A program made the translations under genes and the position numbers. Under the pieces are notes generated by a model. It saw only the letters and a list, made by a program, of their open reading frames with translations. It searched no databases and was not told where the DNA came from. Below are positions 32,930 to 33,110 of a stretch of 40,418 nt of DNA, in pieces; positions within the stretch are counted from its first letter, which is position 1, and the number at the start of each line of letters is the position of its first letter. The stretch is from IMG/VR virus record IMGVR_UViG_3300025449_000003, positions 1 to 40,418 of that record. One strand, given 5' to 3'. The stretch is from a virus.

Positions 32930-33110
32930 CTTCACTTGTGGGACGTAACCGCAGGAGTGAGGGGATAAGCGTACTGTGGGGAAGATGCTGAGATACGCAA
33001 AGGGGTGGCGAAGATAGTGCCCTAGCATCGAACGACTGTCGGGTTCTGTGGCTCCGAAAAGCAGAATGGAAGGAAAGACGAACCTTTGTCTTAGGAAAGG
33101 CTAGGTTCGT
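32930..33110 (+). ncRNA. Candidate structured RNA with pseudoknot
   Basis: A roughly 180-base non-coding stretch, richer in G and C than its flanks, folds into several helices that I can draw by hand. A 12-pair interrupted hairpin spans 32930-32962 (CTTCACT plus TGTGG, with CCGCA plus AGTGAGG). GCGTA 32969-32973 pairs with TACGC 32994-32998 and interlocks with GATGCT 32984-32989 pairing AGCATC 33024-33029, forming an H-type pseudoknot. TTCTG 33044-33048 pairs with CAGAA 33062-33066. An 8-bp stem pairs 33078-33085 with 33103-33110. No ORF fits. It lies after a terminator and before the ribosome site of the next gene, so it could be an independent RNA or a 5' control element. Confidence 0.6.

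Follow-up and report, generated by a model that had tools for sequence, protein, structure and literature searches.

A phage-borne RNA of family RF02932 with an extended, doubly pseudoknotted fold, in tandem with a candidate kissing-loop terminator RNA

What is encoded at positions 32930-33110 of this phage DNA, and on what might the product act? The window, that is the whole stretch of DNA analyzed, is IMG/VR record IMGVR_UViG_3300025449_000003 from position 1 to 40,418, and all coordinates refer to it. Exact 99-bp direct terminal repeats (1-99 and 40320-40418) indicate that the window probably covers a whole phage genome of about 40.3 kb; two direct repeats of 72 nt, 81% identical to each other, lie at the ends of neighbouring minus-strand genes (30972-31043 and 31217-31288). 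The original prediction had described 32930-33110 as an ORF-free, GC-rich region between a terminator and a ribosome site, and these features were all found: no ORF of at least 20 amino acids is present on the + strand within 32913-33152, the GC content of 32900-33099 is 50.5% compared to 24-37% in the flanks, a hairpin with poly-T (32834-32909) precedes the region, and AAGGAG with an ATG at 33153 follows it. The neighbouring genes are:

32567-32791, + strand: upstream gene, small helix-turn-helix regulator, Cro/YdaS-like, from profile matches
33153-33521, + strand: first downstream gene, coiled-coil membrane protein, not conserved at this place

The upstream gene was matched by PF15943 (E = 2.9e-4, below its curated cutoff) and phrog_35 (E = 5.8e-4), and its homologue stands at the same place in L189, L193 and L200.

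The region had been thought to match no known RNA class, which proved wrong when it was searched against Rfam by cmscan:

32928-33044, + strand: RNA core, Rfam family RF02932 (Betaproteobacteria-1 RNA), matched at full length (model positions 1-120)

The match scored 104 bits against a curated covariance-model cutoff of 49.4 (E = 9.9e-19, or about 1e-18), and alignment and covariation showed the consensus helices P1, P2 and P5 as well as the conserved GGGUGGCGAAG / CGAA core. Judged from its sequence, the stretch is a folded non-coding RNA gene and a phage-borne member of this catalogued family, whose relatives were found in an Acidovorax phage and in Variovorax, Caballeronia and Azonexus genomes. 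Rfam lists the type of RF02932 as sRNA. A 2017 article in NAR is said to be the source of the family; our literature search gave no paper naming it, and no description of its function was found.

The original prediction had also drawn two interlocking stems forming an H-type pseudoknot. Folding of the single sequence was not unusual (z = −1.04, with 27 of 200 shuffles equally stable), so that from the window sequence alone the helices are within chance; it is the comparative evidence from homologues that places the structure above it. By searching with DNA patterns derived from the conserved core, 162 occurrences were collected from IMG/VR and genome loci, of which 102 with less than 90% identity to each other made up the non-redundant set. 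Covariation was evaluated by a tree-based test, a home-made approximation of R-scape. Comparison of about 150 homologous IMG/VR stretches showed that the full RNA is about 195 nt long and extends to about 33123, approximately 70 nt 3′ of the Rfam model; the predicted limits of 32930-33110 were too short at the 3′ end. Its elements are:

32930-32937 / 32955-32962, + strand: helix P1 (two-sided changes in 8 of 8 pairs; 94.6% of cells paired)
32949 and 32951-32954 with 32979 and 32977-32974, + strand: second pseudoknot, PKa, between the P1 loop and J1/2 (85.7% of cells paired)
32968-32973 / 32994-32999, + strand: helix P2, including the first predicted stem, 32969-32973/32994-32998 (GCGTA/TACGC); 6 of 6 pairs with two-sided changes, significant in the tree-based test
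32984-32989 / 33024-33029, + strand: pseudoknot PKb, the second predicted stem (GATGCT/AGCATC), interlocking with the first
33003-33005 / 33020-33022, + strand: P4, GGG/CCC, reaching into the P5 loop, invariant in 50 of 50 sequences
33013-33018 / 33035-33040, + strand: helix P5 (97% paired), with the strongest covarying pairs of the RNA
33045-33123, + strand: 3′ domain beyond the Rfam model, comprising P6, P7, then UUCACCA and the second copy of a repeat, from homology in more than 100 loci
33044-33048 / 33062-33066, + strand: helix P6, significant in the tree-based test
33079-33085 / 33103-33109, + strand: helix P7, from folding

In the tree-based test, 11 pairs were significant and every one of them fell in the drawn helices (P1, P2, PKb, P5 and P6), including four pairs of P1 and the pair 32987-33026 of PKb. 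Both stems of the prediction, P2 and PKb, therefore covary across homologues, strongly supporting a structured non-coding RNA with an H-type pseudoknot. PKb pairs in 102 of 102 non-redundant homologues if the adjacent C of CGAA is included, with 57 different helix sequences among them, and at least four pairs form in 87 of the 102, compared to a mean of 33.6 and a maximum of 44 after shuffling the 3′ strands among homologues; the column-wise count gave only 63% pairing because a one-base length difference shifts the register in half of the sequences. For PKa, pairing was higher than in 60 of 60 shuffles and alternative pairings such as CAG/CUG, CGG/CCG, GUG/CAC and CCGUGG/CCACGG were observed, the last of which is present in L223 and swapped to CCACGG/CCGUGG in L234. 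Cognate strand combinations of P6 and P7 pair better than shuffled ones. P4 rests on conservation only, since it never varies and a covariation test is impossible. Taking all helices together, 87.4% of cells were paired, compared to 67.4% upon shuffling and 33-45% when the partner strand was slid. These comparisons of sequences show a fold of about 195 nt, in which a compact core (P1, P2, P5, two pseudoknots and the GGG/CCC contact) is followed by a two-helix 3′ domain. The RNA resembles RF02932 as catalogued in matching over the cutoff at full length and in sharing P1, P2 and P5, but differs in its approximately 70 additional 3′ nucleotides, its location in a phage early operon and its tandem arrangement with the upstream RNA described below; its pseudoknots are not carried by the Rfam covariance model of the family, the comparison being with that model alone.

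The 3′ domain contains a duplicated element:

33056-33063, + strand: first copy of a direct repeat (GAAAAGCA)
33116-33123, + strand: second copy (AAAAGGCA; AAAAAGCA in the close relative L003)

The two copies, 7-10 nt long, flank P7 in the contexts CUCCG-NNNNAGCA and CACCA-NNNNAGCA. Such variable direct repeats are present in most phage homologues; they differ between phages and agree within each RNA (7.29 of 10 positions versus 4.83 upon shuffling, maximum 5.22). Complements of the element near the RNA numbered 17 versus 13 expected, none of them conserved, and in the whole window none was found beyond the element itself. The two copies might be recognized by a partner acting in trans. Hfq-type ARN repeats in the A-rich linker were also considered and rejected (2.6 versus 2.4 expected).

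Directly upstream of the RF02932 RNA, a second structured RNA, here called RNA1, was found in about 50 loci:

32775-32802, + strand: promoter-like sequence of RNA1, TAGAAA - 16 nt - TATACT (9 of 12 consensus positions)
32808-32909, + strand: RNA1
32809-32813/32822-32826, + strand: hairpin H1 of RNA1
32815-32821/32876-32882, + strand: kissing helix, formed between the H1 loop and a complementary segment within the terminator
32834-32843/32896-32905, + strand: terminator stem, with an inner stem (32848-32854/32884-32890), followed by poly-T

The terminator hairpin with its poly-T (32834-32909) folds with z = −4.5, and a hairpin of this type precedes the RF02932 RNA in 53 non-redundant loci. In about 50 of the 53, the loop of a hairpin 5′ of the terminator is complementary to a segment inside it, with different sequences in different loci (GTAGGAA/TTCCTAC and GTCGTGT/ACACGAC, for instance; GTTGCAA/TTGCAAC in the window). 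This kissing pairing scored 7.76 versus 5.92 upon shuffling (maximum 6.37), and the RNA1 structure covaries strongly among 26 aligned sequences (0.637 versus 0.239 shuffled). The 9/12 promoter match of the window is by itself not above chance; in many relatives, TTGACA / TATAAT-like sequences, 15-19 nt apart by eye, are seen at the same place. No Rfam family matched RNA1, and none was found in 200 Burkholderiales genomes, a search with stricter filters and without a positive control. RNA1 appears to be an uncatalogued class of structured RNA. The RF02932 RNA begins 15-25 nt after the RNA1 poly-T with no visible promoter between them, so that its synthesis in these phages must depend on readthrough or on transcription starting elsewhere. 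About 15 other loci lack RNA1, and there the RF02932 RNA starts where a primase gene ends, at its stop codon.

The location in the early region is shared across phages: the RNA is found mid-operon in the early or replication region, co-directional with its neighbours and often just after the primase gene (primase upstream in 28 loci). When 50 phage records were searched whole, 49 had exactly one match and the fiftieth was a chance pattern match, so that a pair of copies in each phage, as put sites would have, was rejected. Annotated carriers are Acidovorax phage AP1 (OM049504, with the RNA at about 11856-12045) and MW202545. Downstream, the genes differ between phages and include those for a 2OG-Fe oxygenase, a RuvC-type resolvase, NinB and a primase-helicase. 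A related phage contig (L240) contains a group I intron at 11889-12147 (RF00028, 79 bits).

In bacteria, members of the family were scattered through the order searched, in 5 of 399 genomes, and frequent in two genera (17 of 58 and 30 of 144 genomes); free-standing copies occur in Caballeronia and one other genus. No match was found in plasmids. These copies have promoter-like sequences of their own and are often paired (L257, L262, L345 and L354-L409), with one to four, often two to four, per genome, in many cases on the same strand and separated by 3-100 kb. A conserved TATACAT-type element is located shortly 5′ of them, with a varying hairpin between this element and P1, and a second class has an additional conserved 5′ domain between the promoter-like sequence and the core (L361, L375, L379, L399, L402 and others). 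Their neighbours are diverse, no gene being conserved except an H-NS-like gene, which 8 of 67 copies have at a distance of up to about 1.5 kb. By eye, some copies are near arsenic or copper resistance genes. Free-standing copies with diverse neighbours suggest that no specific downstream gene is needed for the family to work, which fits an RNA that acts in trans.

It is mainly because of these free-standing, multi-copy bacterial genes that we prefer a trans-acting reading for the phage member, with RNA1 setting its amount, although we regard the chances of this being correct as evenly balanced. RNA polymerase reading through the RNA1 terminator, or arriving from the upstream gene, would produce the RNA, which would then be released from the early transcript; its rigid core may act on a protein or ribonucleoprotein of host or phage, and the duplicated 3′ element may serve as a rapidly evolving recognition tag. 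Control of its amount by RNA1 is suggested by the pairing of the terminator loop with the upstream hairpin, since readthrough can depend on such a contact. Against action in trans, the duplicated element showed no complementary target, and the phage RNA is read inside an operon, often with no room for its own promoter, as a cis element would be. Phage members could also act in cis while bacterial members act in trans.

Among cis-acting alternatives, we consider it unlikely that the RNA is a processive antitermination element of the early operon, similar to put, which as nascent RNA would stay on RNA polymerase and allow later terminators to be read through. The put RNA of phage HK022 is about 65-70 nt long and has two simple hairpins. 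The window RNA, too, is structured and lies close to terminators in the early transcript of a phage, but with about 195 nt and two pseudoknots it is set apart from put, a distinction made by description alone. Such a role would suit a single-copy RNA that is co-directional and mid-operon, at the place corresponding to tR1 or tR2 before nin-like genes, and some phages do have a terminator 60-80 nt after the RNA before the next co-directional gene. However, the downstream operons show no excess of sense terminators (0.058 versus 0.054 per kb on the other strand), the first terminator is upstream of the RNA and hence not suppressible by it, and the bacterial copies have no conserved downstream operon. 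A generally terminator-rich downstream operon was rejected as a feature of these loci; the only peak was at +163 to +185 in one phage group.

Leader control of the next gene, or antisense control of the C4/IsrK kind, appears improbable. RNA1 would then be the short, terminated transcript, and the RF02932 part would lie in a readthrough transcript and control its translation. Lambdoid and Gifsy-type prophages have the isrK / C4 pair (RF01394, RF01695), in which a second isoform arises when transcription passes the IsrK terminator; the order of promoter, short terminated RNA and second RNA in the readthrough transcript is shared with the window, where the promoter is a promoter-like sequence (PMC4825925; PMC4603805). 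The likeness does not extend to sequence, to models (neither RF01695 nor RF01394 matched the window or any of 14 loci at the gathering cutoff) or to an antisense relation: over 89 loci, cognate complementarity was absent both to the downstream ribosome-binding region (mean z = 0.11 ± 0.12) and to RNA1 (0.17 ± 0.12), and pairing with either was rejected. The originally suggested 5′ control element of the 33153 gene is likewise disfavoured by the varying downstream genes and by the free-standing members lacking a conserved neighbour. Finally, a knot that blocks ribonucleases and stabilizes or processes the early mRNA downstream would agree with a rigid pseudoknotted core placed intergenically in a polycistronic operon, but is the most improbable of all, as conservation far exceeds the need of a generic block (36 invariant columns among 50 diverse sequences) and the free-standing copies and duplicated variable element are left unexplained.

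Returning to the trans-acting RNA with RNA1, a wider proposal, which we offer tentatively and with considerable doubt, is that the two form one phage riboregulatory unit, in which a kissing-loop terminator would choose between a short RNA and a long transcript containing the doubly pseudoknotted RNA with its fast-evolving duplicated recognition element, the same RNA having been taken into, or from, bacterial genomes as free-standing genes. What appears new is a phage-borne RF02932 member with an extended fold, placed directly behind a kissing-loop terminator RNA that seems not to have been described, the function being what we infer from these comparisons. Beyond the predicted stems, the analysis adds PKa, the invariant GGG/CCC contact P4 and the 3′ helices P6 and P7, and for this doubly pseudoknotted structure exact compensatory mutants can be defined. 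RNA1 itself resembles a regulated terminator of a class not yet described. As the RNA is common in phages, with one copy per genome in the replication region, including that of the cultured Acidovorax phage AP1, its role is testable by deletion.
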